From positions 1-40,226 of the forward strand of contig JAOAAJ010000038.1 of NCBI GenBank assembly GCA_026418935.1: DNA of 40,226 bases, given 5' to 3'. Positions 13,763 to 33,039 of the stretch are shown in pieces. Within the stretch, counting starts at the first letter, position 1; every line of letters begins with the position of its first letter. This DNA is from Caloramator sp. Lineage in GTDB: Bacteria; Bacillota; Clostridia; Clostridiales; Caloramatoraceae. A program made the translations under genes and the position numbers. The notes beneath the pieces were generated by a model. It saw only the letters and a list, made by a program, of their open reading frames with translations. It was not told the DNA's origin and did not search any database.

Positions 13763-13801
13763 GTTATTAGAATATTTTGAATATTTAAGGTGGTGGTGGG
13801 T

Positions 13802-15322: not shown

Positions 15323-15334
15323 GGGGGTTAATCT

Positions 15335-16981: not shown

Positions 16982-16992
16982 GAGGTTGTAGG

Positions 16993-17889
16993 ATGGCTAA
17001 AATAATTGAGTGTGTTCCAAATTTTTCAGAGGGAAGAGATAAGGAAAAGATTGAAATGATTGTGGAGGAGGTAAGAAGGGTAAGGGGAGTTAAGCTTCTT
17101 GATTATTCTTCAGATGCTGACCACAATAGAACAGTTGTAACCTTTGTTGGAGATGTTGAGGGAGTTTTAGAGGCAGCCTTTAATATTACAAAAAAGGCCT
17201 GTGAGCTTATTGATATGAGAAACCATAGTGGTGGACATCCAAGAATGGGGGCAATGGATGTTATACCATTTATTCCAGTTAGAGAGGTTACAATGGAGGA
17301 ATGTATAGAAATTGCAAAGGCTGTTGGAAAAAGAATTGGTGAGGAGCTAAAGGTTCCTGTGTATTTATATGAAGAGGCAGCAACAAGACCAGAGAGAAAG
17401 AATTTAGCAGACGTAAGAAAGGGACAATATGAAGGCTTTTTTGAAAAGATTAAAAATCCAGATTGGGCACCAGATTTTGGACCAAGTGAGATGAATGAAA
17501 AGAGCGGATGTACTGCAGTTGGTGCAAGAGTTCCACTTGTTGCATTTAATGTAAATCTAAATACACCAAATATTGAGATTGCAGATAAAATTGCAAAGAC
17601 AGTAAGGTTTATAGGTGGAGGATTGAGGTTTGTAAAGGCGATGGGGGTAAAGCTTGAGGATAGGAATATAACTCAGGTTTCAATGAACCTTGTAAACTAT
17701 GAAAAGACTGCAATATATAGAGCCTTTGAAATGGTTAGGATGGAGGCAAGAAGATATGGTGTTGAGGTTGTTGGAAGTGAGATAGTTGGGCTTGTTCCAA
17801 TGAAGGCACTTGTTGATTCTTTAGAGTACTACCTACAGCTTGAAAACTTCAGTATTGAGCAGGTTTTAGAGCATAGGATAGCTGAATAG
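16993..17889 (+). CDS. ftcD: Glutamate formimidoyltransferase
   Basis: The enzyme transfers the formimino group from N-formimino-L-glutamate to tetrahydrofolate, releasing glutamate. The 298-residue protein consists only of the formiminotransferase domain (N and C subdomains); its start, KIIECVPNFSEGRD, and RNHSGGHPRMGAMDVIPF are family signatures. In animals this is fused to the cyclodeaminase, which here is the separate fchA. TAGGAGG precedes the ATG. Confidence 0.95.
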   Translation: MAKIIECVPNFSEGRDKEKIEMIVEEVRRVRGVKLLDYSSDADHNRTVVTFVGDVEGVLEAAFNITKKACELIDMRNHSGGHPRMGAMDVIPFIPVREVTMEECIEIAKAVGKRIGEELKVPVYLYEEAATRPERKNLADVRKGQYEGFFEKIKNPDWAPDFGPSEMNEKSGCTAVGARVPLVAFNVNLNTPNIEIADKIAKTVRFIGGGLRFVKAMGVKLEDRNITQVSMNLVNYEKTAIYRAFEMVRMEARRYGVEVVGSEIVGLVPMKALVDSLEYYLQLENFSIEQVLEHRIAE

Positions 17890-17899
17890 GGGTGGTACT

Positions 17900-19150
17900 T
17901 TGGATAGAATATTATTGAAAAATGGGAGGATTGCAACGGTAAAATCCAATGGCCCAAAATTTGGGGGGGAAATGGCGGACATTGGGATAATTGAGAGAGG
18001 TTATGTGCTTGTTGAGAACGGTATTATTTTAGATGTAGGAAGTGGGGAAGGATTGGAATATTTAGATGAAGGGACGGAGGTTATTGATTTAGAGGGAAGA
18101 CTTGTTCTTCCTGGATTTGTTGACAGCCATACGCACCTTGTTCACTATGGTTCAAGGGAGAATGAGTTAAAATTAAAGCTTGAGGGAGCAAGCTATTTAG
18201 ATATATTAAAACAAGGCGGGGGAATTTTGAGTACGGTTAGAGCTACAAGGTCGGCAAGCTATGAAAATCTTTATAAAAAGGCATTGAAGAGTCTTGATTT
18301 GATGCTTCTTTGGGGAACAACAACCGTAGAGGCCAAGTCAGGATACGGATTGAATTTTGAAGATGAAATAAAGTGTCTAAAGGTTGCAAAAAAGATAGAG
18401 CATCCAATAGATATTGTAAGCACATATCTTGGTGCACATGCAGTTCCTGAAGAGTATAGAGGGGATGTTGATGGATATATAGACCTTATGGTTGAAAAGG
18501 TAATTCCCTATGTAAAAAAAGAGGGACTTGCAGAATATGTGGATGCCTTTTGTGAAGAGGGATTTTTTAATATAGAGCAGACAAGAAGAGTTTTGAAGGC
18601 GGCAAAGGACTTAGGATTCCAAGTGAAGTTGCATGCAGATGAGATAGAACCTATGGGGGGTGCACAGCTTGCAGCAGAGCTTGGGGCTATTTCGGCAGAG
18701 CATTTAGTAGCTGTATCGGATGAGGGGATTGATGCAATGAAGGAGGCAGGAGTAATACCTATTCTGCTTCCTGGAACCTCCTTTTATTTAAGGCTAAAAA
18801 AATATGCACCAGCAAGGGAAATGATAAGAAAAGGCCTTGCAGTAGCTGTTGCGTCAGATTATAACCCAGGTACGTGTCCAACTGAGTCGCTACAGAGCAT
18901 AATGGTATTTGCATCTTTAGGTATGGGACTTACTCCACAGGAGGTAATATCGGCAGTTACAATTAATGCAGCCTATTCAATAGGACGTGGAAGCGAGGTA
19001 GGAAGTATAGAAAAGGGCAAGAAGGCCGATTTGGTTGTTATGAACGCCCTAAATGAGAACTACATCATTTACCATTTTGGAATAAATCATATTGATATGG
19101 TAATAAAAAATGGTAAAATAGTAGTTAGAGATGGAAAATTAATATACTAA
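17900..19150 (+). CDS. hutI: Imidazolonepropionase
   Basis: HutI opens the ring of 4-imidazolone-5-propionate to N-formimino-L-glutamate. The 416-residue amidohydrolase has the metal-binding DSHTHLVHYGSRENE, the LGAHAVPEEYRGD segment, KLHADEIEPMGGAQLA, SAEHL, and VASDYNPGTCPTESL. A TTG start at 17900, 4 bases after AGGGGTGG, gives the expected N-terminus and leaves a 10-base gap to ftcD. No downstream ATG fits the family N-terminus. Confidence 0.95.
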   Translation: MDRILLKNGRIATVKSNGPKFGGEMADIGIIERGYVLVENGIILDVGSGEGLEYLDEGTEVIDLEGRLVLPGFVDSHTHLVHYGSRENELKLKLEGASYLDILKQGGGILSTVRATRSASYENLYKKALKSLDLMLLWGTTTVEAKSGYGLNFEDEIKCLKVAKKIEHPIDIVSTYLGAHAVPEEYRGDVDGYIDLMVEKVIPYVKKEGLAEYVDAFCEEGFFNIEQTRRVLKAAKDLGFQVKLHADEIEPMGGAQLAAELGAISAEHLVAVSDEGIDAMKEAGVIPILLPGTSFYLRLKKYAPAREMIRKGLAVAVASDYNPGTCPTESLQSIMVFASLGMGLTPQEVISAVTINAAYSIGRGSEVGSIEKGKKADLVVMNALNENYIIYHFGINHIDMVIKNGKIVVRDGKLIY

Positions 19151-19161
19151 GGAGGATTGTG

Positions 19162-19800
19162 ATGAAGGTATATGAAAATACAATAGAAAAATTTTTAGAG
19201 GACCTTGCTTCAAGCTCTCCTGCACCAGGAGGAGGGGCAGTTGCGGCATTATCTGGTGCACTTTCTGCAAGCCTTTCATCAATGGTAATGAATTTAACAG
19301 TAAATAAGAAGAAGTTTATGGAATATAGTGATGATGTTAAGAATAAGTTCAATGATTATTTAATAAAGTGTGAAGAACTACGAAAAGAGTTTATGGGATA
19401 TATTGAAAAGGATGTTGAGGCCTTTAATTTAGTTATGCAGGCCTATAAGATGCCAAAGGAAACAGAAGATGAGAAGAAAGAGAGAAACAGGGCAATACAA
19501 AGGGCTCTAATTGAAGCATATAGCGTACCTTATTCTGTTGCAGATACAGCCTTTTCAATGTTTGATATGGTGGATTTTATCTCTGAATATGGCAATAAAA
19601 ATGCTATAACTGATGCAGGGGTTGCGGCAATACAAATATTTGCAGCAATAGAAGCAGCAGTTTTAAATGTAAGGATTAATTTAGCAGGAATAGAGGATAT
19701 TGATTTAGTTAGTGATGTGGATATGAACTGCAAGAGGTTTTTAATTGAAGCAGCACAGAAAAAAGAGGAGATACTAAAGAAGGTAATGGCAGCCATTTAA
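19162..19800 (+). CDS. fchA: Formimidoyltetrahydrofolate cyclodeaminase
   Basis: The 212-residue protein belongs to the FTCD_C family and converts 5-formimino-THF to 5,10-methenyl-THF plus ammonia, returning the one-carbon unit to folate metabolism. The N-terminal APGGGAVAALSGALSASL region is characteristic, and the protein is predicted to be an all-helical oligomer. GGAGG sits 6 bases before the ATG at 19162; an adjacent in-frame GTG at 19159 is possible. It completes the hut operon, which ends in a terminator. Confidence 0.93.
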   Translation: MKVYENTIEKFLEDLASSSPAPGGGAVAALSGALSASLSSMVMNLTVNKKKFMEYSDDVKNKFNDYLIKCEELRKEFMGYIEKDVEAFNLVMQAYKMPKETEDEKKERNRAIQRALIEAYSVPYSVADTAFSMFDMVDFISEYGNKNAITDAGVAAIQIFAAIEAAVLNVRINLAGIEDIDLVSDVDMNCKRFLIEAAQKKEEILKKVMAAI

Positions 19801-19927: not shown

Positions 19928-20164
19928 ATGTTTTATTGTACAAGCTGTAAAAGAATAGTTAAAGATGGAGGGGTTTGCGAATTTTGTTCTAATGTAGATT
20001 TAAGGGAACTTAAACTTGATGCTCCTGTTAATGTACTTGGAACAAAGCTTAAGGGAAGAGTTCTAAAGATAACAGACGATAAGGTAAGGTTACTCATAAG
20101 GGACGATGCAAATAATAAGTTTATAAAGGAATACAGTTATAAAGAATTAAAGAAGGTATTATAA
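19928..20164 (+). CDS. Small zinc-ribbon protein of unknown function
   Basis: The 78-residue protein opens with a treble-clef or ribbon-like metal site: YCTSCK and CEFCSN give two CxxC pairs at residues 4-7 and about 17-20. The rest is a compact basic beta-rich region (LGTKLKGRVLKITDDKVRLL) that could be an OB- or SH3-like fold. GGGGGG precedes the ATG. It sits alone between the hut terminator and a convergent operon. Nucleic-acid binding is plausible but not shown. Confidence 0.75.
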   Translation: MFYCTSCKRIVKDGGVCEFCSNVDLRELKLDAPVNVLGTKLKGRVLKITDDKVRLLIRDDANNKFIKEYSYKELKKVL

Positions 20165-20184
20165 AAGGGTGCATTTGCACCCTT
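20165..20184. terminator. Bidirectional terminator between convergent genes
   Basis: AAGGGTGC at 20165-20172 pairs with GCACCCTT at 20177-20184 across a 4-base loop. T-rich sequence follows on the plus strand (TTATTTTAA) and on the minus strand (TTTTATAAT), so it can end both the zinc-ribbon gene and the pdaA operon. Confidence 0.75.
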
Positions 20185-21139
20185 ATTTTAACTCTGTTAA
20201 AGATTTAAACTCATACCCCATTTCACGAAGTTTATCTATTATTGTTGGTAGTGCTTCGGTGTTGCTTTTTGATACTGCATGTAGAAGCATTATCTCACCG
20301 TTATGGCTTCTATCTATCACCCTTTGTATTGTTGTTTCAACAGGAGGCTGGTCATCTACAATCCAATCCTTATGTGCAAAGCTCCAAAAGATTGTTTTGT
20401 ATCCAAGCTTTTGGGTGTAATATAGGGAAAGTTCACTGTATTTACCCATTGGAGGTCTAAAGAATTTTGTCATATCTTGATCGGTTACCTCCTTAAAGGC
20501 AGCCTCTGTATCCTCAAATTCCTTTTTAAATTTCTCAAAATCCGTAGCCTTCTGTGGCATTGAAGGATGTGTTGAGCTGTGGTTTACAACAATGTGGCCT
20601 TCCTCAACCATTCTCTTTATAAGTTCTTTGTTTTGTTTTATATATGGTCTTGTTACAAAAAAGGCAGCCTTTACGTTTTTCTCCTTTAAAACATCAAGTA
20701 TCTTTGCTGTATATCCATTTTCATAACCCTCATCAAAGGTTAGATATATTTCCTTTTTTGTTTTATCCCCTAAATAGTAAGCGTCATACTTTTTAAAAAG
20801 TTCCATTGTTTGTTTTGGCATATACTGAGACTCGTTATTTTTTATAGGAGGCGGACCAAAATCTATCTCTTTATTGCTAAGGGATGAAACATCTGCATCT
20901 ATTATTAAAACATCTTCGTTGTTTATATTGTCTTCATTATTGGATGTTTCTTTGTTATCTTCCTCTTTATTTTCATCTTTAGTTTCTGAAGTCTTATCTT
21001 CTGAAGGCTTTTGTTCATTGCTATGATTTTCATTTGTTGGTGGTTTTGTATTTATATCATTATTACTGCTTGTTTGTTTTTTGCCACAGGATGAAAAAAG
21101 TAATATTACTGCAAGTAAAACAGGAATTATCTTTTTCAT
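20183..21139 (-). CDS. pdaA: PdaA-type polysaccharide deacetylase lipoprotein
   Basis: PdaA removes the N-acetyl group from muramic acid on the way to muramic-delta-lactam in the spore cortex. The 318-residue protein has a lipobox (LLFSSC, Cys18), a low-complexity Asn/Glu/Lys linker to about residue 80, then a NodB domain from about 130. The PdaA form of motif 1, TFDEGYENGYT (134-144), replaces the usual TFDDGP. NHSSTH supplies the metal histidines (187 and 191), and FFRPPMGKYSE, FWSFAHKDW and LLHAVS follow in family order. AAGGAGG precedes the ATG. It is 22 bases downstream of the flavodoxin-like gene, so it may be read from the same operon. In Bacillus pdaA is sporulation-controlled; I see no clear forespore promoter here. 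Confidence 0.87.
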   Translation of the reverse strand: MKKIIPVLLAVILLFSSCGKKQTSSNNDINTKPPTNENHSNEQKPSEDKTSETKDENKEEDNKETSNNEDNINNEDVLIIDADVSSLSNKEIDFGPPPIKNNESQYMPKQTMELFKKYDAYYLGDKTKKEIYLTFDEGYENGYTAKILDVLKEKNVKAAFFVTRPYIKQNKELIKRMVEEGHIVVNHSSTHPSMPQKATDFEKFKKEFEDTEAAFKEVTDQDMTKFFRPPMGKYSELSLYYTQKLGYKTIFWSFAHKDWIVDDQPPVETTIQRVIDRSHNGEIMLLHAVSKSNTEALPTIIDKLREMGYEFKSLTELK

Positions 21140-21161
21140 TTTAGTGCCTCCTTTAATACTA

Positions 21162-22211
21162 TTAGTTTAACATCATATTTTTAACAATATTTTGTGCAAA
21201 TTCCTGTGCTTTATTTTCTATATTTTCAACTTTTTTTATCTCTCCCATATCATTTGCTATTTCCATTATAGCAAAATAGGGTGGTAGTATAAAACCCTTA
21301 TTAATATTTAGTGAACCTATTAGCTGTTTTGCAACAGAATCTCCTCCAGAATTGCCAGATACTATTACAGAAAAGAGCATCTTATCGTAGAAGGGATTCC
21401 TTCTATATAGGGCAGTTATTCTGTTTATAACAGCACTTAAGTTGGCAGATACTGCATCGTTGTAGTTTGGACATATAAATACAACAGCATCTGCCTCTTC
21501 TATTGCAGGGAAAATCTCCTTCACAATAGAACCACCATAAAAGCAGCTTTTTTGTTTTGCAAAGTAAAGACAGGTTTTAAATGGACATCCTATGCAATCT
21601 TGTATGGTTCCATTTTCAACGTGGTGTTCTAATATACATATTCCCTCTATATATTTTCTTATCATATACCAAAGGGTTAATGTATTAGATGTATCTCTAT
21701 AGCTTGCGTGTAGTACAGAGAGCTTAGGATTTTGTTTTTTTTCAATTTTAAAGTTAAAAAATCTATCCGATAGTCCTTCACATAAATGGTAGCATATATC
21801 TTCAAGGGGCATATTAAGAGTTTTTTGCCACGTTCTAAAGTTTAGAAAACCCTCTACAACTTCTACCACAGGATGTCCTATGAAGGTACATCCAAGGCTG
21901 TTTGCTATAAATATAATCTGCTGTGAAAAGCTCTTTGTGTAGTTTATTGAAGGACTTTTTATCAGTATGCAGGCAGTTGAATTAGATAGTGCATCCCGTC
22001 CCATCAGGGAAATGCTATTTAACACATCAAGTACATAAGGGCATACACCAATACTGTTTAGCTCAACTGCAAAAACAATCCTCCTATTTTGAAGATTTTT
22101 ATGCCTTTGAGGATTATATTCCTCAAAGGCATTATACTTCATAAAAGCCTTTATCATATTATTTAAGACATCAGATCTATTTATAGATGCAATAAGTATA
22201 GTATCATACAT
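21162..22211 (-). CDS. Tandem flavodoxin-fold protein, NADPH-dependent FMN reductase-like
   Basis: The 349-residue protein appears to contain two flavodoxin-like alpha/beta halves. The second (about 165-345) is closest to the NADPH-dependent FMN reductase family: KLSVLHASYRD at its start, ADAVVFICPNYNDAVSANLS (flavin-contacting loop in relatives) and SVIVSGNSGGDSVAKQ. A cysteine group (Cys206, 209, 214, 223 in DCIGCPFKTC and KSC) precedes it. The first half (1-150) is degenerate. The ATG at 22211 overlaps the stop of the upstream dehydrogenase-like gene by 8 bases, implying translational coupling and joint function. A TTG at 22214 is an alternative start. Electron transfer for the operon's pathway is inferred. 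Confidence 0.7.
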   Translation of the reverse strand: MYDTILIASINRSDVLNNMIKAFMKYNAFEEYNPQRHKNLQNRRIVFAVELNSIGVCPYVLDVLNSISLMGRDALSNSTACILIKSPSINYTKSFSQQIIFIANSLGCTFIGHPVVEVVEGFLNFRTWQKTLNMPLEDICYHLCEGLSDRFFNFKIEKKQNPKLSVLHASYRDTSNTLTLWYMIRKYIEGICILEHHVENGTIQDCIGCPFKTCLYFAKQKSCFYGGSIVKEIFPAIEEADAVVFICPNYNDAVSANLSAVINRITALYRRNPFYDKMLFSVIVSGNSGGDSVAKQLIGSLNINKGFILPPYFAIMEIANDMGEIKKVENIENKAQEFAQNIVKNMMLN

Positions 22212-23400
22212 CAAACTCTACCAGCCTTTCATAGCTCTTTTTAATTCTTTCAAAAAGCCTTTCATCTATATTTTTATAGGTTTCTATTTCAACCCCATAA
22301 TCTGTAATTCTATTTTTTATACCTAAAAAGGCATTTCCGATTGCTACTGTACTGTAGTGCCATTCACCCTTAAGACAGGATAGAATGGATAGGGCACCAG
22401 ATGAAAGGGCTGGGGCAATATAGGGCTTAAATCCAGTCCTTCTAACCTCTATATTTGCTTTTGTAGTGAGCTCTGTTAGTTTAAGTGACAGTTCGTGGTT
22501 GTAGTTTTCTATATTATCTGCTACAACAAGGTCTGCACCGTGGGGGCCAAAGGCTCTTCCCTTATCTTTAAAATAGTCTATATTCATATTTTGAGCAAAG
22601 TAGAGTGCCCTTGCATACATAACTCCAAGTCCAAATCCCTTAACATTATCCGAAGGGAAGGTGTAGTCTTTATTTAGCTCACTAAAGGCCTTTTTGCAGA
22701 GGTGGTCAACAGGGTCAGAAACCACAAAGAAATACCCTTTATAGTTTGCCTTTTTTGCAGCCTCTGCATACATAGATATAATTTCTGCATTGCTTTTATA
22801 CTGAACAATTCTAACATCAACGTCCTGTATAGATACATCAGGAACCTGTCTTGTTATGCAGAATATAAATACATCGCAGTCAAAGACCTCATCAAAAGAA
22901 ACAGGTTTAACAAGAGGTAAAGAAATATTACTTGGATAGTTTATCTGGTTTAGTTCATATTCCCATCTTTTTACTTTATTTTCATCAAGGTCAAAAATTC
23001 TAATTTGTGAAATTAAATCACTACCTAAAAGTCTAAGTCCAATAGACAGGGTCCCACCAACGTCTCCAAGCCCTGCAACTGTAACTTTATATTTTTTCTT
23101 TAGTGGATTAATTTTATATATATCCTCCCATTCTTCAAAGGATGTATTTATTGAGGATAATCTGCCACAGTCTATTAATTCATCTAATAAGCTCTCTTCT
23201 TTTTTTAATATATAGTCTAAGCTCTCTCTATCCTCAACTTGAGCTATAGAATTTATTACCTGTCTAAACTTATTATGTTTTCCTCCCTTTTTTAAAAGGT
23301 ATATATGCTTAGAAGTTTTTAGATCCTCTTCAGTTCCTTTATCAAGATTAAAGTTGTGGTTTGATATAAATACGTCTCCATTTTTCTTGTATATATTCAT
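22204..23400 (-). CDS. LDH/MDH-like NAD-dependent dehydrogenase with altered active site
   Basis: The 398-residue protein has an unfamiliar N-terminal region (1-103) followed by a lactate/malate dehydrogenase-like fold. VTVAGLGDVGGT (107-117) is the NAD-binding loop. By family comparison, the substrate-loop Arg-Gln (ITRQVPDV, Arg184), the carboxylate Arg (VMYAR, Arg264) and the catalytic His (FGPHGAD, His287) are kept. However, the usual Asn of VVSNPVD is Asp (Asp229), and the Asp of the DxxR dyad is Met (261). This suggests a changed substrate or altered chemistry rather than ordinary lactate or malate oxidation. It lies 10 bases after the giant multidomain gene and overlaps the flavodoxin-like gene. 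Confidence 0.72.
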   Translation of the reverse strand: MNIYKKNGDVFISNHNFNLDKGTEEDLKTSKHIYLLKKGGKHNKFRQVINSIAQVEDRESLDYILKKEESLLDELIDCGRLSSINTSFEEWEDIYKINPLKKKYKVTVAGLGDVGGTLSIGLRLLGSDLISQIRIFDLDENKVKRWEYELNQINYPSNISLPLVKPVSFDEVFDCDVFIFCITRQVPDVSIQDVDVRIVQYKSNAEIISMYAEAAKKANYKGYFFVVSDPVDHLCKKAFSELNKDYTFPSDNVKGFGLGVMYARALYFAQNMNIDYFKDKGRAFGPHGADLVVADNIENYNHELSLKLTELTTKANIEVRRTGFKPYIAPALSSGALSILSCLKGEWHYSTVAIGNAFLGIKNRITDYGVEIETYKNIDERLFERIKKSYERLVEFDV

Positions 23401-23410
23401 CTTATTCCTC

Positions 23411-26400
23411 CTATGTCAAAATTGGTTCAAGTTTTTCAAGTTGTTCAAGGTCATTTTTTAAATAAACAGAAGGAGATAGGGTTAGGTCGTAGTACATAAA
23501 CTTTCCGTGCTCTGGATATCTTGGGTAGACAAGTGCATCACCAATATTTTGTAAAGTTAAGCTCCTTTCATTAATTGCTTCATATTCTTGCTCTATTGCT
23601 TCAAGAAGTATTTTAGCATTTTCTATGCATACCTTTGAGAGATTAAATATATCCTTTGCTGATGCTCCCTTTAGGAAGGTTGGAACCGCATAGGGGAGTA
23701 TCAGGTTTACAGATGGTATTAGGTTTCTTTGAGGATAGCTTCCCCTAAATAATGTATCTCCACCTATGAAGGGGTAGAGGGCATCTTCATAGAACCAAGC
23801 CCTAAGCTTTGGTATAAAATATGCACAGTCAACCTCGCGATTTTGTATATCCATAATCTCCTTTCCTTGACCTGATAATATTCCAACAATTATCTTATGC
23901 ACATCAATCTTTTCAGCCTTTAAAATAGGATCAAGAGCCTTTATCCTGTATCCCTTATGGAGTATATCATCAACAAGAATAATAGGTCTGTCAAAGCTTG
24001 CAATTGTTTTAATTTGAAGTTCAAGGCTAAGATAATTTGGATATGGACCTATTTTAAAGTTTTTTAGGTTGGGGTTAAATAGTTTTTCTGTATGCAGTGC
24101 CTTTGTTACTGTATTTGGTACAATATTTCTTCTTAATATATTTCCATAGGGGACGCATATTAAAGGACCGAGTGTTCTTGGTGTCATTTGGTAGGTTGGA
24201 ACTCCATTTTCCCTACAAATCTTTTGAACAAGCCTCTTATATATAACATCCCTTTCAAATATCAAAACAAGATGTCCAGGATAGAGTTTAATTAGGGCTC
24301 TTTTTAAATTTTCTCTTGTTTTATTAATTGCATTTTTTACAGTTTCGGTATTTCTATAGGGCTCCTTAATAATTGTTTCAATATCAAGAAGCAGTGATAT
24401 AGGGTAGTTCATATTTACAGCATAGCATTTATTATATATATCCTCAGTTTTAACTTCAATAAAACCGTTTGTTAAAAGTAGATTTTGTATTTCAAAGTTT
24501 TCCTTTATATCAAGAAGGTTTTTATATATAGCATAGTCATAGTCCTTACTTATGCAAAAGGACACCGTCTCTGTTAGAATAAGCTGTGGTAGTTCCTTTA
24601 TTTTTGAGTTTTTATCTATATACATACCATCTATGCATATTATTCTTCCTACAGCATTTTCCCTTAAAAAGTTAGAAATAATTGTGTCATTTAGCTCAAC
24701 ATAAAAGGAGTTTGAACGTAGCCAGTGGAAGGCAGAAAAACCAGCTATGCTGTCATTTTCTTTGTCAATTGCAATGAGAAGTCTTGCAGATGGTTTTGCA
24801 AAGAACTTCATCATCTTTTCTTTAACTATATAAAAATTTAATCTTAAAAGATGAGACAGTTTTTCAACAACAGCCTCCTTATATTCCTCAACAACTTCAA
24901 ACTCTAAGGGCCAATCTGTAAGTAGGGATTTATATTGGGGTTCTCTTCTATAAAAACCATTTTCATATATATACTTCTGCACAAGAGGATCAACTAAATT
25001 TGATATATCTCTATTTTCATCTATGCTGTCTCTTATCTGAGTTGAGCTTATGTCTTCGTATTGTGGAGGAAGATTTAATTTAATAACATCTCCCTCTAAA
25101 TTTTTAACAGCCTCCTCAAACATTTCTTGACTGTATTCATTTTTGCTTCGTCTTTCAAATATTAGGTGATTTAGTGTGTGTATGGAGTCTTGTTCTTTGG
25201 GTTTTTTATAGGCAGATGCATTTATTACAACATCACTTCCAACAACAATATATACATCAAAATCCTTAAATATATCCTTAAGCCTTCTTATGTCCTTTGG
25301 ATTTGAAATATTTATAGGCTGTGTTTCAGGAAAGAGGAATATGTTGTTTTCATCTGCAATAGATAAGGCAGCAATTGTTCTTCTAATTAGGTTTGGCAGA
25401 GTCTTTTTAGACCAAGAAAACTCATCTATTGCAATATACACCTCAAAACCTAAATCCCTAATTGCCTTTGCAATTTCCTTGTGGCTTAAGGAAAATGGGT
25501 CAAAGGTTCCTGGCATAAAGGCAATTCTCTTAGGAATATCTAATTTTATCTTAGATATAATGTTTTGTTCAGATATAAATCTATAAATATGGTTTAATGC
25601 TGCAGAATTAACTAAAAATAAAAGTTCATCCTCCTCAAACTGTCCAATAATTGATAAAAATTTCTTTGCAATAATATTAAATATTTCATTCTTATCCTCT
25701 AAGGATAGAGTTTTTGAGCCAAAAACCTGAACACCAATGCAGTTAAGAGCAAATTGTTTTATTTGGTTGTTGTAGTTTATAAGTCCACTCAATAATATAG
25801 AGATTAGTTTGTTTAAAATTTTAATATATTCCTCCTCTTTGTTAACTTGAGTTTTATATATATTTATGTTTGAAAGTGCAACGGAGGAGGTTTTTAGTAT
25901 AAGTGATGAAACCCTTGTATTTGAGGTTTTTATCTTTTCATAGGAGTCATCTAAAAATTCATTAAGTTCTACAAAAGGAAGGTAGAGTATTATTTTACCA
26001 AGATAGTTTGGAATGTATTTGGTAAATCTATAGCCTTCCATTTCAAGGGCACGAACAAGCTCTACTGCAATTTCGTTTCTTTGATCCATTGGTAGAAACT
26101 TAATTATATTTAATATAGATTCTCCAGCTTTATTTCTTACAGCTTCAACAGCACTAACCTTAAGAAGATTACAGAAGTGTAGTGCTGTTTGAAGTCCCCT
26201 CTCCTTTGGATTTTTAAGAGCATAATCTAAAAGAATATCAATCTGTATTTTTTTAGTTATCCAGCTTGTTGCAGTTTTAAGGTTGCTTAAGAATATATCT
26301 GTTATATTTTCAAGGTTTTTAATGTAGAAGGAAAGATATTCATTTACAACAATAGTCTCAATGCCCAGTTTTTCAGCTATGTTCAATTTTAAAAAGTTTT

Positions 26401-28231
26401 CAGGTGCAGTTGCACTGTATTTTATTTCATTCATAAATAGTTGCTTTATCTTTTCTAATATATTTGTTGATGGAGTATGTTTTTTAAGCTGCACATAAAG
26501 GGTATCAAGGGCCATAATTCTAATGTGGTGTCTTTCTGATAACAGCCTTTTTATTAAAAAATCATAAAAGAGGCTGTCTTCATCCTTAAGGGGAATGTAT
26601 TTTGCAGCATCTAAAAGGTATAGTTCTATCTCCTTTGAAAGATTGTCTCTATTGTAAAACTCCTGTAGAGCAAATTTATATTCTAACTTTTGATTTTCGC
26701 TAATTTTGTCGAATATAGATTTAATAAAAACAGAAAGGCTGTATCCTATCCATTCCTTGTAGGTATCTATTATTTTATGGTCTGGTGTGAGCATAAGTGA
26801 AACATATCTTTTAAAAAGGTAAATTGAATTTATATCATCTTTATCTATCTTTGCATTTTCAGGCAGTTCCTTTCTATATTCTTCATCAAAGGAGGCAATT
26901 AGAAGTCCCAAAAGTTCAGCAGCCTGTCTTCTTATGTCCTCTTCATTGTGCATTAGCTGTTCATATAAAAAACCAAGGGTTATGATTTTTTGCTTTTGTG
27001 TAAGGTATGTTGAATATTCTTCAATAATATCAAGATATGCACGAAGGGATTGAGAGTCCTGTGCATTTCTTGCATTCTCAAGTATTTCATTAAGTGAAAA
27101 TTCGCTTCTTAATTTGTGCATAAGATTAATATTATGGCTTATTGCTTGGTATTTGATGTTTTCAACTACATCTTCACCAAACATAAGTGAATAACACTTA
27201 TCCTTATATGTAGTTACTTTAAGGTCATCTAAGGATACATTTATTCCTAAATCCAAAAGATAGTTTTCAAAATCCTTAAGCTTTGAATACACCTTCTTAT
27301 ACCTTAAAATTTTTTTCTCATCAACGTTGTCAAGCTTATTTAGTATAACGTCAAAGGACTCATCAAGGCTGTATATGTACATTTGCTCTTTGTTATCTAT
27401 TTTTTTGTTTTTGACTCTAAAGTCGCTGTATATTAATATTAATGATTCAATTGATAGGTTTTCAAGCTCTAAATCCCAAGTAGAGTGGTTTATTGCAATG
27501 TTTCTTATGTAGTTTATGTTGTGCTTTTTAAACCATACATCTGTGTAGTAGTAGTGTAGATAGGGAACTCTTTTTAGTTCAACTCCTTTACAGCCAAATT
27601 TACCAATGTCGTGGCCTGCAGCAGCCCCAGAAATTCTTCCAAGGTCAATGGGTAGGTTTTTAACCTTTGCCTGTCTTGCTATATATAGGGATAGATAGTG
27701 TACACCACAGACGTGATCAAGGGTGTTATATCCTATTATTTCTTGGTTTAATTTCATCATTTCATATACATAATCGCCCTCAAAGGCCTCAACAAATCTT
27801 TTATATTCTGTAGGGTCTTCAAGGATTCTTTCTTCATCAAGCCCTAAGAAAAATAGAGGATATCTACTTTGAAAACTGTCGTCATTGGATAGTTTTTGGA
27901 ATTTTGAAAAAACTTTAAGCAGTATTAGGTAGGTTTCATATATTGCAAAATCCTCCTCATCAAGTTCTAAAGTAACTGCTTCTTTGAAGGATTTTGAAAG
28001 GGCATACTGGTAGACTGCAAATAAAAAGTCGTCGTCTTTTTTATAAAAGGTCTTAATTATCTCCTCAAGGCAAATGTAGCACCTTTTGCAACTATAGTCT
28101 CTATTTACAGAAGCCTCATTTAGGTTGTTTTTAAAGTCCTGAGTATTTAACATATCAATTAGTTTTTTATATATGCTTGATGATGTTATTATTCTTGATT
28201 TTAGTATTAGGTCTATAAATTCTCCAAACAT
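23411..28231 (-). CDS. Giant multidomain protein: HD, helical repeats, NadD-like nucleotidyltransferase, GNAT-like, phosphoribosyltransferase
   Basis: This 1606-residue protein joins several enzyme types. Residues about 165-280 hold an HD phosphohydrolase (His173, AAGHDIGKFG with His207-Asp208, INHSTW, YSD270). Residues about 380-890 are helical and look like HEAT/ARM-type repeats. Residues about 900-1095 are NadD/cytidylyltransferase-like, with GTFDPFSLSHKE at 908-919, VVGSDV and SSTQIRDSI at 1062-1070. Residues about 1105-1265 resemble a GNAT acyltransferase. Residues about 1315-1480 are phosphoribosyltransferase-like, with the PRPP motif IILVDDILHKG at 1417-1427. AGGAGG precedes the ATG, and a good promoter lies upstream. 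In many Firmicutes nadD is followed by the HD-domain gene yqeK, so an HD-NadD fusion echoes a known pairing. Overall function is unknown to me. Confidence 0.8.
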   Translation of the reverse strand: MFGEFIDLILKSRIITSSSIYKKLIDMLNTQDFKNNLNEASVNRDYSCKRCYICLEEIIKTFYKKDDDFLFAVYQYALSKSFKEAVTLELDEEDFAIYETYLILLKVFSKFQKLSNDDSFQSRYPLFFLGLDEERILEDPTEYKRFVEAFEGDYVYEMMKLNQEIIGYNTLDHVCGVHYLSLYIARQAKVKNLPIDLGRISGAAAGHDIGKFGCKGVELKRVPYLHYYYTDVWFKKHNINYIRNIAINHSTWDLELENLSIESLILIYSDFRVKNKKIDNKEQMYIYSLDESFDVILNKLDNVDEKKILRYKKVYSKLKDFENYLLDLGINVSLDDLKVTTYKDKCYSLMFGEDVVENIKYQAISHNINLMHKLRSEFSLNEILENARNAQDSQSLRAYLDIIEEYSTYLTQKQKIITLGFLYEQLMHNEEDIRRQAAELLGLLIASFDEEYRKELPENAKIDKDDINSIYLFKRYVSLMLTPDHKIIDTYKEWIGYSLSVFIKSIFDKISENQKLEYKFALQEFYNRDNLSKEIELYLLDAAKYIPLKDEDSLFYDFLIKRLLSERHHIRIMALDTLYVQLKKHTPSTNILEKIKQLFMNEIKYSATAPENFLKLNIAEKLGIETIVVNEYLSFYIKNLENITDIFLSNLKTATSWITKKIQIDILLDYALKNPKERGLQTALHFCNLLKVSAVEAVRNKAGESILNIIKFLPMDQRNEIAVELVRALEMEGYRFTKYIPNYLGKIILYLPFVELNEFLDDSYEKIKTSNTRVSSLILKTSSVALSNINIYKTQVNKEEEYIKILNKLISILLSGLINYNNQIKQFALNCIGVQVFGSKTLSLEDKNEIFNIIAKKFLSIIGQFEEDELLFLVNSAALNHIYRFISEQNIISKIKLDIPKRIAFMPGTFDPFSLSHKEIAKAIRDLGFEVYIAIDEFSWSKKTLPNLIRRTIAALSIADENNIFLFPETQPINISNPKDIRRLKDIFKDFDVYIVVGSDVVINASAYKKPKEQDSIHTLNHLIFERRSKNEYSQEMFEEAVKNLEGDVIKLNLPPQYEDISSTQIRDSIDENRDISNLVDPLVQKYIYENGFYRREPQYKSLLTDWPLEFEVVEEYKEAVVEKLSHLLRLNFYIVKEKMMKFFAKPSARLLIAIDKENDSIAGFSAFHWLRSNSFYVELNDTIISNFLRENAVGRIICIDGMYIDKNSKIKELPQLILTETVSFCISKDYDYAIYKNLLDIKENFEIQNLLLTNGFIEVKTEDIYNKCYAVNMNYPISLLLDIETIIKEPYRNTETVKNAINKTRENLKRALIKLYPGHLVLIFERDVIYKRLVQKICRENGVPTYQMTPRTLGPLICVPYGNILRRNIVPNTVTKALHTEKLFNPNLKNFKIGPYPNYLSLELQIKTIASFDRPIILVDDILHKGYRIKALDPILKAEKIDVHKIIVGILSGQGKEIMDIQNREVDCAYFIPKLRAWFYEDALYPFIGGDTLFRGSYPQRNLIPSVNLILPYAVPTFLKGASAKDIFNLSKVCIENAKILLEAIEQEYEAINERSLTLQNIGDALVYPRYPEHGKFMYYDLTLSPSVYLKNDLEQLEKLEPILT

Positions 28232-28264
28232 AAAATCCTCCTAAACTATAGATTATATATTTTA

Positions 28265-28294
28265 ATATTACAAAAAATAAGGTTGTATAGTCAA
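28265..28294 (-). promoter_or_regulatory. Sigma-A-type promoter of the giant-protein operon
   Basis: On the minus strand TTGACT (28294-28289) and TAATAT (28270-28265) are 18 bases apart, about 34 bases upstream of the ATG at 28231. Confidence 0.7.
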
Positions 28295-28370
28295 ATTAAT
28301 CTTTCCAATATGAATTGTATATGGAAATAATTTATAAAATGTGCAATAATTAAGTTAGGGAGGTGTTAAG

Positions 28371-30158
28371 ATGGATTACAGTCTAATTGAAAGAAAGGAT
28401 ATCCCTAATGAGTTTAAATGGGATATAGATACAATTTATGGAGATGAAGAGAGCCTCTTAAAGGATGTTGAAGCATTAAGAGGAATGATTGAGGAGATTA
28501 AAAAGTTTAAGGGAAGTTTTAAAAATGGTGCAAAATTTTTATATGAGTGTTTATCTTTAAGGGACGAGGCTGGAAGGCTATGCGATAAGATAACAGTTTA
28601 CTGTTTTATGAAAAGAGATGAGGATAACAACAATACAAAGGGACAGGAGCTTGCGGATTTAGGAGAGAGGGTATCTGTTGAATATAATAGTGCAACAGCC
28701 TTTATATATCCTGAAATTTTAGAGCTTGAGGATGGAACAATAGATAGATATTTTAAAGAAGTAGAGGAATTAAAGCTATATGAGCATGAGCTTGAGGATT
28801 TAATAAGACAAAAGAAGCACGTTTTATCAGATAAAGAGGAAGAACTTCTCTCAAAGACAGCAGAGATGTCACAGGGGTTTGAAAATATATTTAAGATGCT
28901 AAGCTTTGCTGATTTAAAATTTGATAAGATAAAGGATACAAAGGGAGAGGAATATGAGCTTACAATAAACAATTTTTCACAGTTTATAGTAGCAAAGGAT
29001 AGGGAACTTAGAAAAAATGCCTTTAAGAGCCTACATAATGGCTTTATGAAGTACAAAAATACATATGGTGCAATGCTCTCATCAAAGATTAAGTCGGATG
29101 TTTTTTATGCAACTGTGAGAGGTTTTAAATCTGCATTAGAGGGAGCATTGTTTTCAGACAACATTGATGTTAGTTTATATAACAGATTAATAGAGATAGT
29201 ATCTGAGAATATTCCTTCCCTTGACGAACTTATGAGGCTTAAAAAGAGGGAGCTTAAGGTGGATGAGCTTCATCTGTATGACCTTTATGTGCCAATTGTA
29301 GAGAGTGTTGATATGGAAGTTAAGTATGAAGAAGGAAAAGAAATGGTAAAGGAAGGCCTAAAGGTTCTTGGAGATGAGTATTTAAGTATTCTTGACGAGG
29401 CCTTTAATAATAAATGGATAGATGTCTACAGCAATAAAAGTAAGTATTCTGGGGCGTATTCTTGGGGAGCCTTTGATACAAAGCCATATATTCTGCTCAA
29501 TTATAATGAAAGGTTAGATGATGTTTTAACCTTATCCCACGAGCTTGGACATTCAATACATTCATATTTCTCAAGAAAAACACAGCCCTATGTGTATTCA
29601 AACTATACAATATTCTGTGCAGAAGTTGCGTCAACAACCAATGAAGTATTAATGTACTTCTATCTAATGGATAAGCTAAAGGGAGATGCAAGAAGGTATA
29701 TTATTAGCGAGTTTATGGAACTTATAAGAACAACCTACTTTAGACAGGTTCTATTTGCAGAGTTTGAATTTATAACCCATACTATGGCTGAAAAGGGAGA
29801 ACCATTAAATGGTGAAAGGCTGTCGGAGATTTGGAGAAACCTATATGAAAAGTACTATGGAAGAGAATGTGTTATAGATGATGAAATAAGTATAGAGTGG
29901 GCAAGAATACCTCATTTCTATGATGGATACTATGTATATAAGTATGCAACAGGATTAAGTGCTGGAATTAGCATTGCAAAATCAATATTAGAGGATAGAA
30001 AAAATGTAGATAGATATTTAAACTTCTTAAAATCAGGTGGAAGTAGGTATTCACTCGATTTACTAAAGGATGCAGGAGTGGATATGTTATCAGGAAAGCC
30101 AATTAGCGATACTGCAGAGGTGTTAAGATACCTTATTAAAGAGTGCCACATAGGTTAA
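28371..30158 (+). CDS. pepF: Oligoendopeptidase F (M3 family)
   Basis: The 595-residue cytosolic zinc peptidase cleaves medium-length peptides. The HExxH motif is in LSHELGHSIHSYFS (about 389-402), with the third ligand Glu in the following FCAEVASTTNE helix, and the C-terminal substrate motif PHFYDGYYVYKYATG is present. Length and start (RKDIPNEFKWDIDTIYGD) match PepF. AGGGAGGTG precedes the ATG. It stands alone, divergent from the giant-protein operon, across a 139-base region. Confidence 0.94.
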   Translation: MDYSLIERKDIPNEFKWDIDTIYGDEESLLKDVEALRGMIEEIKKFKGSFKNGAKFLYECLSLRDEAGRLCDKITVYCFMKRDEDNNNTKGQELADLGERVSVEYNSATAFIYPEILELEDGTIDRYFKEVEELKLYEHELEDLIRQKKHVLSDKEEELLSKTAEMSQGFENIFKMLSFADLKFDKIKDTKGEEYELTINNFSQFIVAKDRELRKNAFKSLHNGFMKYKNTYGAMLSSKIKSDVFYATVRGFKSALEGALFSDNIDVSLYNRLIEIVSENIPSLDELMRLKKRELKVDELHLYDLYVPIVESVDMEVKYEEGKEMVKEGLKVLGDEYLSILDEAFNNKWIDVYSNKSKYSGAYSWGAFDTKPYILLNYNERLDDVLTLSHELGHSIHSYFSRKTQPYVYSNYTIFCAEVASTTNEVLMYFYLMDKLKGDARRYIISEFMELIRTTYFRQVLFAEFEFITHTMAEKGEPLNGERLSEIWRNLYEKYYGRECVIDDEISIEWARIPHFYDGYYVYKYATGLSAGISIAKSILEDRKNVDRYLNFLKSGGSRYSLDLLKDAGVDMLSGKPISDTAEVLRYLIKECHIG

Positions 30159-30701: not shown

Positions 30702-30735
30702 TTAATTAGATTTAATTAATATTTTGGGGGTGGAC

Positions 30736-33039
30736 ATGTTGAAATTTTTTAAAAAAGTTACATGTCTGCTTATAGCTATGTTGATGTCAACAAACATAGT
30801 ATTTGCAGGGATGCTAGATGGAAAAAAGATAGTCCTTGATGCTGGACATGGTGGAAATCCACTTATAACTTATAGTAATGGTAAAAAAGGAGATCCAGGT
30901 GCTTGTGTTGATAATATAAAAGAAAAAGATATAAATATAGCTATAGTAGAGAAATTATCAAATATTCTTAAGAATTTTGGAGCAGAAATTATTTTCACAC
31001 GAGAACCAAATAATGATGTATCTGTTAGCCTTGAGGAAAGAGTAAAAATAGCAAATTCTAATTCAGCTGATATGTTTATAAGTGTACACAATAACATAGC
31101 CTCAACTACTCAGAATGGAAAAACAGTTCTTAATACATCAGCCAGTGGAACAGAAGCTTTTTATTCTAAATATGCTGAATATGAGGGCAAACGTTATATT
31201 TATAAAGGTGATGTAAAAGAAGGTAATATAGTTTATGCAAATATTCAAGATGTAGATGGAAATAAATTAAAAGTGGAAAAGACTAAAGTTAAAATATTAG
31301 AAGAAGATAGAAAAATACTTGCCCAACTGGTAGTTGATAGTATATCTTCGTTAGGTTTTAAAAATAGAGGAGCAAAACCATCAGAATACTATGTAACAAG
31401 GTATACTGTTATGCCTTCAATATTAATAGAAGCTGGTTTTATGTCAAATCCAGAAGAATTAAAAAAATTAACTGATCCGGATATGCAACAAAAAATAGCT
31501 TTTAAAATAGCAGATGCAGTATATAGGTATTGTGAGGATGTAGAAAAAAATAATAGGATAATAAATGGATTTATAAAAACTTTAAATCTAAATATGTCGA
31601 ATCGATTTGTTTTTTTAGGTCAATCAATACTTTTAAAACTTGATGGAATAGAGAATGTTGATGAGTTTGTTTATAAAGTTCAAATTAAGAAGGATGGAGA
31701 AATAGTATTTGAAAATGATTATGGAAGTGATTTGAGTTTTGAATATAATCCAAATACTATAGGTTTTTATGATGTAAATTATTTTATTAAAAAGAAAGAT
31801 TCACAAAATGAGTATGATGATAAAATAGGTGCAAACTTTATAGTTTTTAAAGCACCTTCAATAAAATCAATAACGCTTGATAATGAAAAAGTTTATGTAG
31901 ATAAACCTATAACAATAAAGACAGATGTTGAAGGTGGAAGTTACGATATAATGAACTATAAGTTTGATGTTTATTTAGGGGGAAATTTAGTTACAACAGT
32001 TACAAATGATAGTGGTTTATTACAATATATACCAAAGGCTGAAGGAGAGTATAAAGTAGTTTGCTATATAAAGGATAAATTAAATAACAACGATTTTAAT
32101 GATAAAAAAGAAATGACTTTTATAGTAGAAAGACAGCAGGAAGTATCAAGAGGAGGAACTATTACTGAAGGTGATATAACAAGTCTTGTTTATACTAGAG
32201 ATTTAAGCTTGGGTGTACAAGGAACGGATGTGACTGCACTTCAGATAGCATTAAAAAAATTAGGTTATTATAATGCAGCTATGACATCATTAGTATTTGA
32301 TAATACAACTTCTATGGCAGTAGAAGAATTTCAAAGAGCTAATGCGTTGACAGTAAATGGTATAGCTGAAATACAAACAATAAATAAAATAAATGAATTA
32401 TTAAAGAGTTTGGGAACAAAAAATACAACAACATCTACAAATACACAAACAAATACAACAACTAATAATCAAGGGCAAAATACAAGTATTTCAAATAGCA
32501 GTATTCAACTGGCTTATGCAAGGATATTAAAGTATGGAATGAGTGGACAAGATGTTAAAAAACTTCAAGATGCACTAAAAAAATTAGGTTATTTAAAGGC
32601 TACAACAACTACAACGTTTTTTGGGACATCCACTAAAGCATCAGTAGTAGCATTTCAAAAAGCCAATAAATTGACTGCAGATGGTGTAGTGGGTAAAACA
32701 ACAATAAATAAGATAAACGAGGCGTTAAAAAAACAGACAGTACAAACCACGGCAAGTACAACAACTCCAAGCAGGGGTAATACAGAACAATTTTCATCAA
32801 ATAACATAACACAGTTAGTTTATACCAGAACATTAAAATTAGGCTTAAGCGGACAAGATGTTAAAAATTTACAGGATGCACTAAAGAAATTAGGTTATTT
32901 AAAGGTTACAACAACTACAACATTTTTTGGTACAACAACTCAAGCAGCAGTTAAGGAGTTCCAAAAGGCAAATAATTTAACAGTAGATGGAATAGTTGGG
33001 CCAAATACAATAAAGATAATTAATCAAAAATTAAAATAA
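30736..33039 (+). CDS. Secreted N-acetylmuramoyl-L-alanine amidase with three peptidoglycan-binding modules
   Basis: The 767-residue protein has a signal peptide (about 1-25). Residues about 30-270 are an Amidase_3 zinc domain that cuts the bond between MurNAc and L-Ala; ligands are His38 (LDAGHGG), Glu63 (IKEKDIN) and His118 (ISVHNN), with catalytic Glu232 (ILIEAGFMSN). An insertion of roughly 50 residues after the second His is longer than in small amidases. Residues about 275-470 look like two Ig-like domains. Three PG_binding_1 modules (about 486-560, 600-675 and 695-767) carry VxxLQxALKKLGYL and xEFQxANxLTxDG motifs and are joined by Thr/Asn-rich linkers. The ATG at 30736 follows GGGGGTGG; an upstream TTG at 30724 is unlikely. 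Confidence 0.92.
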   Translation: MLKFFKKVTCLLIAMLMSTNIVFAGMLDGKKIVLDAGHGGNPLITYSNGKKGDPGACVDNIKEKDINIAIVEKLSNILKNFGAEIIFTREPNNDVSVSLEERVKIANSNSADMFISVHNNIASTTQNGKTVLNTSASGTEAFYSKYAEYEGKRYIYKGDVKEGNIVYANIQDVDGNKLKVEKTKVKILEEDRKILAQLVVDSISSLGFKNRGAKPSEYYVTRYTVMPSILIEAGFMSNPEELKKLTDPDMQQKIAFKIADAVYRYCEDVEKNNRIINGFIKTLNLNMSNRFVFLGQSILLKLDGIENVDEFVYKVQIKKDGEIVFENDYGSDLSFEYNPNTIGFYDVNYFIKKKDSQNEYDDKIGANFIVFKAPSIKSITLDNEKVYVDKPITIKTDVEGGSYDIMNYKFDVYLGGNLVTTVTNDSGLLQYIPKAEGEYKVVCYIKDKLNNNDFNDKKEMTFIVERQQEVSRGGTITEGDITSLVYTRDLSLGVQGTDVTALQIALKKLGYYNAAMTSLVFDNTTSMAVEEFQRANALTVNGIAEIQTINKINELLKSLGTKNTTTSTNTQTNTTTNNQGQNTSISNSSIQLAYARILKYGMSGQDVKKLQDALKKLGYLKATTTTTFFGTSTKASVVAFQKANKLTADGVVGKTTINKINEALKKQTVQTTASTTTPSRGNTEQFSSNNITQLVYTRTLKLGLSGQDVKNLQDALKKLGYLKVTTTTTFFGTTTQAAVKEFQKANNLTVDGIVGPNTIKIINQKLK

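Follow-up and report, generated by a model that had tools for sequence, protein, structure and literature searches.

A conserved three-gene operon of anaerobes coding for a giant NadD-fold multidomain protein, a dehydrogenase-like protein and a flavoprotein, associated with glycine-type reductase genomes

In the available text of PMC9426524, YqeK fused to NadD is described as editing (proofreading) NAD synthesis, as in JCVISYN3A_0380, and in that of PMC8177086 a six-residue dinuclear HD motif is attributed to YqeK and also to HD oxygenases, with HD phosphatases sharing an arginine about three residues before the first histidine. We describe here a locus combining such modules, found in a 40,226-nt stretch of contig JAOAAJ010000038.1 (hereafter the window) from the draft genome of Caloramator sp. 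(GCA_026418935.1, 2.0 Mb, 134 contigs). The locus is a three-gene unit (21162-28231, reverse strand) coding for a giant protein (gene 1), a dehydrogenase resembling lactate/malate dehydrogenases (LDH/MDH; gene 2) and a flavoprotein (gene 3). From the N-terminus, the giant exhibits an HD domain, a HEAT-like solenoid, a NadD fold, a GNAT-like fold and a domain resembling type I phosphoribosyltransferases (PRTases). The recognised parts fall into known fold classes, and HD is already known in combination with NadD, but we found no described system that the whole matches. A preliminary description, made from the sequence of the window, knew of no described pathway of such composition; likewise, no description of the set was found in the open-access literature, a coverage outside which most subscription papers lie, and in the available text of the Clostridium sticklandii genome paper (PMC3091704) the enzyme terms of the set did not occur, 'flavoprotein' appearing only in the reference list.

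The nearest known system is the NadD-YqeK fusion. The giant too pairs a NadD fold and a dinuclear-type HD motif in one polypeptide, and the two may share a make-and-edit logic. It differs by its reversed domain order, its 1606 residues, the added solenoid, GNAT-like and PRTase-like domains, the NadD curated cut-offs and the HD phosphatase arginine that it misses, its patchy distribution and its pairing with redox genes. Since the host genome carries its own NadD-YqeK fusion of 388 residues (L178:871-2037, the YqeK part recognized by TIGR00488 and the NadD part by motifs), the giant is not the housekeeping NadD copy; YqeK was present in 20 of the 20 relatives searched. The explanation that we place first, tentatively and short of an even chance, is that the operon belongs to amino-acid-fermenting anaerobes and that the giant makes and edits a NAD-type dinucleotide on which both redox partners act. 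We favoured it because the giant repeats the NadD/HD pairing and adds a PRTase-like domain that might supply the nucleotide, together with two redox partners. The PRTase-like domain would transfer ribose-5-phosphate from phosphoribosyl pyrophosphate (PRPP) onto a base, the NadD-type domain would join the resulting nucleotide to AMP (or another nucleoside monophosphate), the HD domain would hydrolyse erroneous or used-up product, in the way that YqeK serves NadD, domains or partners would be held together by the HEAT-like solenoid, and the dehydrogenase and the cysteine-rich flavoprotein would reduce, load or use the product. We infer each of these reactions, the order of the steps, the dinucleotide product, the Fe-S cluster and the physiological link. 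The broader proposal of the preliminary description, that a nucleotide-like cofactor or signal might be made, repaired or recycled and then used by the redox partners, gains weight because HD and NadD in one polypeptide mirror the NadD-YqeK fusion.

Table 1 Coordinates in the window of the genes, domains and motif of the locus.
Feature	Position	Strand	Basis
Gene 1, giant multidomain protein, 1606 aa	23411..28231	-	Open reading frame (ORF)
HD domain, residues 130-345	27197..27844	-	Pfam HD in 28/36 members; residue counts
All-helical HEAT/ARM-like solenoid, residues ~353-892	25556..27175	-	AlphaFold2 model; VIA; weak HEAT match
NadD-type nucleotidyltransferase domain, residues ~900-1100	24932..25534	-	CTP_transf_like; Foldseek; VIA; motifs
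GNAT-like domain, residues ~1109-1282	24386..24907	-	Fold topology only
Type I PRTase-like domain, residues 1286-1606	23414..24376	-	Pribosyltran in 15/36 members; hhalign; residue counts
Gene 2, LDH/MDH-like NAD-binding dehydrogenase, 398 aa	22204..23400	-	ORF; Ldh_1_N
Gene 3, flavoprotein with C-terminal FMN_red domain, 350 aa	21162..22214	-	ORF; FMN_red
Four cysteines of gene 3, C207-x2-C210-x4-C215-x8-C224	21543..21596	-	Invariant in 38 alignment rows
pdaA, delta-lactam-biosynthetic de-N-acetylase, 318 aa	20183..21139	-	TIGR02884; adjoins, outside the conserved unit

Relatives of the giant were found on at least 529 contig stretches of a one-genome-per-species collection (tblastn, E up to 1e-3), and the neighbourhood was counted in the best 80 of them (public loci). 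The giant of Caloramator proteoclasticus DSM 10124 is 94% identical to that of the window. Gene 2 lay near the giant in 72 of the 80 loci (tblastn) and gene 3 in 66 (two cut by the contig end). In six of the eight loci without gene 2 the contig stops no more than about 300 bases from the giant, L146 and L158 being truly without it, and in nine of the 14 without gene 3 it stops at most about 520 bases past the last member of the set to be present. With the window included, genes 1 and 2 were separated by a median gap of 13 bases, and genes 2 and 3 by one of -4. The gene-neighbourhood check called for in the preliminary description thus showed the three genes conserved together, in the same order, across many families. 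Compared with C. proteoclasticus, genes 1, 2 and 3 gave dN/dS values of 0.049, 0.152 and 0.086, respectively, and are under purifying selection; because of these low ratios (0.05-0.15) and of the proximity of genes 2 and 3 to the giant in most loci, the set is more than a chance assembly. Pairwise distances of the three proteins in 66 complete sets correlated at 0.70-0.75, with none of 1000 permutations as high, a figure inflated by shared ancestry. In two loci (L096:7711-13363 and L104:14776-20145) the partners are found some 5.6 and 5.4 kb away from the giant, behind ammonium-transporter and glutamate-synthase genes, the intervening genes of L104 being identified by Pfam and L096 having the same gene clusters.

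Among 60 relatives, own genome included, 19 carried a full-length giant and three a partial or broken one (G001, G004 and G008). Wherever gene 2 matched strongly (21 genomes), the giant gene was present as well, and the sole carrier without gene 2 was G001, where the contig breaks off at that place and the genome is 64% complete. In G004, of the same genus, all three genes are in pieces in different frames (G004:C1:2564906-2571952), through decay or poor sequence, and in the single-contig genome G009 gene 2 is split over two overlapping frames (G009:C1:358930-360158), probably by a frameshift. In a quick, arbitrarily rooted tree of 81 rows, a branch with support 100 had the nine Atribacterota rows to one side of it, next to rows of Tepidibacter and Alkalithermobacter, a placement that suggests transfer between phyla. 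L146 and L158 formed a separate giant clade from Marinisporobacter metagenome-assembled genomes, one of which, McD2.5, also has a standard giant copy (L118). At these two loci (L146:8900-18200 and L158:8977-14737) an APH-type kinase gene lies just upstream, with EamA-transporter and radical-SAM genes on the other strand.

We found also that the cluster tracks genomes with glycine/sarcosine/betaine reductase, an association that the preliminary description had not foreseen. In a class sample of 291 Clostridia genomes, a carrier being defined by a match to the HD-solenoid region of the giant (E up to 1e-10, some partial), the distribution was patchy, with 25 carriers. The selenoprotein B family of glycine/sarcosine/betaine reductase (GRDB, E up to 1e-30) was present in 23 of these and in 14 of the 266 non-carriers (Fisher p 2e-22, a genome-level value inflated by shared ancestry). 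By family, eight of the nine carrier families overlapped the 12 GRDB families (p ~2e-7, assuming 75-80 families in the sample), and by genus 17 of 18 carrier genera did so. The two carriers without GRDB were G153 (99% complete) and G271 (80% complete). GRDB was picked for testing since many of the named carriers are, we presume, amino-acid fermenters, and the comparison is not an unbiased scan. Selenium in general was considered as the correlate and rejected: SelD was present in 24/25 carriers and 42/266 non-carriers, but within SelD-positive genomes the cluster was found in 23 of 36 with GRDB and in one of 30 without it, so that GRDB correlates better with the cluster. A weaker correlation was seen for proline reductase PrdA (8/25 carriers, 7/266 non-carriers). 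SelD, PrdA and Spo0A served as controls. The PrdA counts, like those of Spo0A given below and of GRDB among the 60 relatives, were made by hand.

The giant as a whole is covered by no Pfam or NCBIfam model. The structure prediction suggested in the preliminary description gave confident models for both halves: residues 888-1606 with a predicted local distance difference test (pLDDT) of 90.4 and a predicted template modelling score (pTM) of 0.88 (AlphaFold), and residues 1-900, almost wholly helical, with 91.2 and 0.87 (AlphaFold2). Judged from models and sequences together, the NadD fold is certain, the HD domain is well supported across the family, the PRTase-like domain is likely, and the GNAT-like domain is a matter of topology only. 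Foldseek recovered the NadD/NMNAT fold at the N-terminal end of the 888-1606 model (best E 1.2e-8), and a VIA comparison of the region with 4rpi_B gave a Z of 19.6 and a root mean square deviation of 2.6 with 186 aligned. The region, which could have been spurious, is a genuine NadD fold. The 50 matches listed for the C-terminal half were all NadD/NMNAT or phosphopantetheine adenylyltransferase chains; the absence of PRTase and GNAT chains among them is not evidence against these folds. CTP_transf_like matched the window giant with an E of 1e-11 and all 36 members sampled from the alignment for domain matches; several NadD models also matched the window giant, under their cut-offs.

Motif counts were made on an alignment of 70 full-length members, the others being 44-94% identical to the window protein. 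In the NadD domain, G908, F910, D911, P912, H917, K942, R950, G998, D1000, Y1008, S1063 and R1067 were invariant (70/70), and the ISS...IR motif had further near-invariant positions (S1062 in 69, I1066 in 68 and I1061 in 65 members). GxFDP...H and ISSTxIR are NadD motifs. In the HxGH-type motif, the first position is serine in 47 and threonine in 23 giants, and the residue preceding the last histidine is serine in 46 and glycine in 23. The invariant aromatic residue Y1008 presumably sits where NadD has its base-stacking tryptophan. With such a domain, a specialised NAD salvage or repair megaenzyme has to be weighed, in which nicotinate or nicotinamide and PRPP would give (Na)MN, to be adenylated and proofread, while the redox partners would repair or recycle damaged NAD(P)H. 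A NadD fold, a YqeK-like HD motif and a PRTase-like domain in one chain would suit this role, and NadD-YqeK editing is published (PMC9426524, available text). The genome, however, already has a NadD-YqeK fusion, and the curated NadD scores are not reached. Moreover, the known nicotinate PRTases have a type II fold, which differs from that suggested for the giant. We regard the salvage role as unlikely.

With E up to 0.1 allowed, 28 of the 36 sampled giants matched Pfam HD, the best with 4.6e-7; the window member matched weakly, its 14.7 bits (E 0.039) falling short of the cut-off of 22. The six residues of the dinuclear motif H...HD...H...H...D are present as H173, H207, D208, H226, H249 and D270, invariant in 70/70 giants, as is K211. 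Compared with YqeK by hhalign, the motif gave a P of 0.0087 with a probability of only 4.6 (low), and TIGR00488, the YqeK model, was not among the NCBIfam matches of the window giant at E up to 1. A dinuclear motif lacking the phosphatase arginine fits HD oxygenases too (PMC8177086, available text), a candidate that was set aside because the carriers are anaerobes.

Downstream of the HD domain, region 360-900 was compared with HEAT/ARM chains, giving a best VIA Z of 13.4, near the non-specific level of this tool for helical repeats, and the Pfam HEAT match was weak (E 0.11, 13.2 bits, cut-off 23.5). The matches listed for the N-terminal half in the fold search were solenoid-type chains; no HD chain was among them, which is not evidence against an HD fold. 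So long a HEAT/ARM-like solenoid would suit an enzyme modifying macromolecules, in which the solenoid would bind RNA or protein, the transferase domains would adenylylate, ribosylate or acylate it and the redox partners would complete the modification. Some HIGH-type nucleotidyltransferases do modify tRNA. The nucleotidyltransferase domain of the giant is, however, structurally closest to NadD/NMNAT, and no fourth gene family is conserved alongside, the next commonest neighbour family occurring in only 8/80 loci, so that we hold this function to be improbable. The one member of that neighbour family to be scanned is a DUF4883 protein; the family occurs chiefly in Clostridium and its relatives, where it immediately precedes the giant gene on the same strand (e.g. 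L117:9388-9876).

Like the type I PRTases such as adenine PRTase, the C-terminal domain has the PRPP-loop aspartates and the surrounding strand-loop-helix, in a loop reading ILVDD-x-L-[HN]-K-G-Y-R (residues 1418-1429). It differs from them by the [HN]-K-G-Y-R part of this loop, by weak family scores and by its fusion to the C-terminal end of the giant. Of the 36 sampled giants, 15 matched Pfam Pribosyltran at E up to 0.1, the window member giving no match. Alignment with adenine PRTase across the PRPP loop by hhalign gave a P of 0.0014 with a probability of only 17.7 (low), while unrelated control pairs gave P values of 0.21 and 0.43; for the PRTase loop and for the HD motif, these comparisons are supportive, not proof. 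P1372, N1373, T1374, K1377, D1421, G1427 and R1429 were invariant in 70/70 giants. The PRTase-like region, another that might have been spurious, has the aspartates of the PRPP loop in place, but the sequence of the loop has changed. As for the GNAT module, strands and helices follow one another in the confident model as they do in a GNAT fold, by our own reading, but by sequence no GNAT family was among the matches of the 36 members.

The same features open another possibility, that the giant is a metabolic sensor or regulatory scaffold, whose NadD, PRTase, GNAT and HD folds would read NAD(P), PRPP, acyl-CoA or alarmones and whose solenoid would relay to the dehydrogenase and flavoprotein, balancing Stickland-type redox flow. 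A GNAT-like domain without a family match and an altered PRPP loop suit binding without catalysis, and the large solenoid, the tight operon with two redox proteins and the association with glycine-type reductases are compatible with such a role. Against it, none of the 70 giants varies in its HD metal ligands or in the principal nucleotidyltransferase residues, a degree of conservation beyond what binding alone needs. We consider this possibility ahead of NAD salvage, and both as close rivals of the make-and-edit explanation.

The calls of a dehydrogenase-like gene 2 and a flavodoxin-like gene 3 in the preliminary description were borne out by domain searches. Ldh_1_N matched gene 2 of the window with 30.1 bits (cut-off 27) and 35 of 37 members at E up to 0.001. 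Gene 2 resembles the LDH/MDH family by its Rossmann N-domain (GLGDVGG in the window protein), H287 of the GPHG motif and R264, these two residues being, we assume, the LDH/MDH catalytic residues; H287 and R264 are invariant, as is LGD (111-113). It differs from this family by an N-terminal extension of about 100 residues and by scores far under the lactate/malate dehydrogenase cut-offs (36.2 bits against 283, and 26.3 against 339). FMN_red matched gene 3 of the window with an E of 6.7e-21 (74.9 bits, cut-off 24) and 38/38 members at E up to 0.001; no NCBIfam match was obtained. Iron-sulfur flavoproteins have a compact group of four cysteines. With its FMN_red domain and four compact, invariant cysteines, gene 3 resembles the NADPH-dependent FMN reductase/iron-sulfur flavoprotein type; the cysteines probably form an iron-sulfur site, which would make gene 3 an iron-sulfur flavoprotein. 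It differs by the 2-4-8 spacing of the cysteines and by an extra N-terminal part of about 160 residues without a Pfam match. In none of the 80 loci was a tblastn match of gene 2 or gene 3 interrupted by a stop codon, and there is hence no sign that either is a selenoprotein.

Several observations weigh against the proposal that the giant makes and edits a dinucleotide. The NadD curated NCBIfam cut-offs are missed by far (NF000840, 49.5 bits against 150; TIGR00482, 47.1 against 112.45). The HD-phosphatase arginine is not at position 170, which is threonine in 65, serine in four and isoleucine in one of the 70 giants. In the PRTase-like domain, D1422 is kept in 57 of 70 giants and replaced by asparagine in 13, the aspartates are followed mostly by L-[HN]-K-G-Y-R where the usual PRPP loop has small or hydroxyl residues, and the best Pfam match has an E of only 0.0016. 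No role falls to the GNAT-like domain in the scheme. In its simple form the scheme is disfavoured by the lack of the HD arginine, by the changes in the PRPP loop and by a GNAT-like domain that it leaves unexplained. The paralogous giants of L146 and L158 are without both redox genes, and L101, L117 and L134 have no flavoprotein gene although there is room for one. The excess of GRDB was weaker among the 60 relatives (19/22 carriers, 11/38 non-carriers), where GRDB is not strictly required, three of the 22 carriers being without it (one genome 78% complete); G007 and G032 have the cluster without GRDB, and the GRDB hits of G004 and G050 are broken.

A bolder form of the make-and-edit proposal is that the operon yields a redox cofactor of NAD-like kind that has not been described, or a nucleotide-tethered substrate carrier, in a single 1600-residue assembly line, with the dedicated dehydrogenase and cysteine-rich flavoprotein as its reductases, in the service of glycine-reductase-type fermentation. 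We regard it as doubtful, and more so than the sensor or salvage roles. Because its catalytic-type motifs do not vary, its partners are constant and it is linked to glycine/sarcosine/betaine reductase, the operon poses a question that can be tested directly, namely which nucleotide is made or destroyed and why these fermenters need it. If borne out, a cofactor not known before, or a novel way of editing cofactors of the NAD type, would add substantially to anaerobic metabolism.

The layout of the genes in the window agrees largely with the preliminary description: the ORFs place the dehydrogenase-like gene 10 bases after the 1606-residue multidomain gene and pdaA 22 bases past the flavoprotein gene. 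The overlap of 8 bases reported between genes 2 and 3 holds from an ATG start, but is 11 bases from the TTG start one codon earlier that was chosen by the ORF caller. The 'one good promoter' was not upheld, promoter-like sites in 20000-28600 numbering 45 against 40.6 +/- 6.8 in shuffles, which is chance level. Neither does pdaA belong to the set as had been supposed: its identity is clear (TIGR02884, 330.4 bits, cut-off 298), but it is the next gene in only one of the 80 public loci (L091) besides the window.

The adjoining pdaA and the patchy distribution could point to sporulation, defence or a mobile element. A sporulation link was rejected, Spo0A_C not being enriched in carriers (19/25 against 210/266 non-carriers) and the pdaA adjacency being local. 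Defence and mobile elements were rejected too: the three window proteins had no PADLOC match at E up to 0.01, and the HD-solenoid query had no match in 50,697 phage records and matched one plasmid record that resembles a chromosome. We hold all of these functions to be very unlikely. The record in question, L172 (NZ_CP154629.1) of Acetoanaerobium noterae, is listed as a plasmid of 2.63 Mb, and its giant-relative stretch is unannotated.

Elsewhere in the window, a histidine-degradation cluster (13790-19800, forward strand) with hutH, hutU, ftcD, hutI and a gene for an FchA-like cyclohydrolase, which scores under its curated cut-off, is convergent with pdaA and represents another amino-acid-fermentation locus alongside the three-gene operon. 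On the other side, a 771-residue protein is encoded at 30724-33039 (forward strand), parts of which match the spore cortex-lytic SleB and CwlD models under cut-off.

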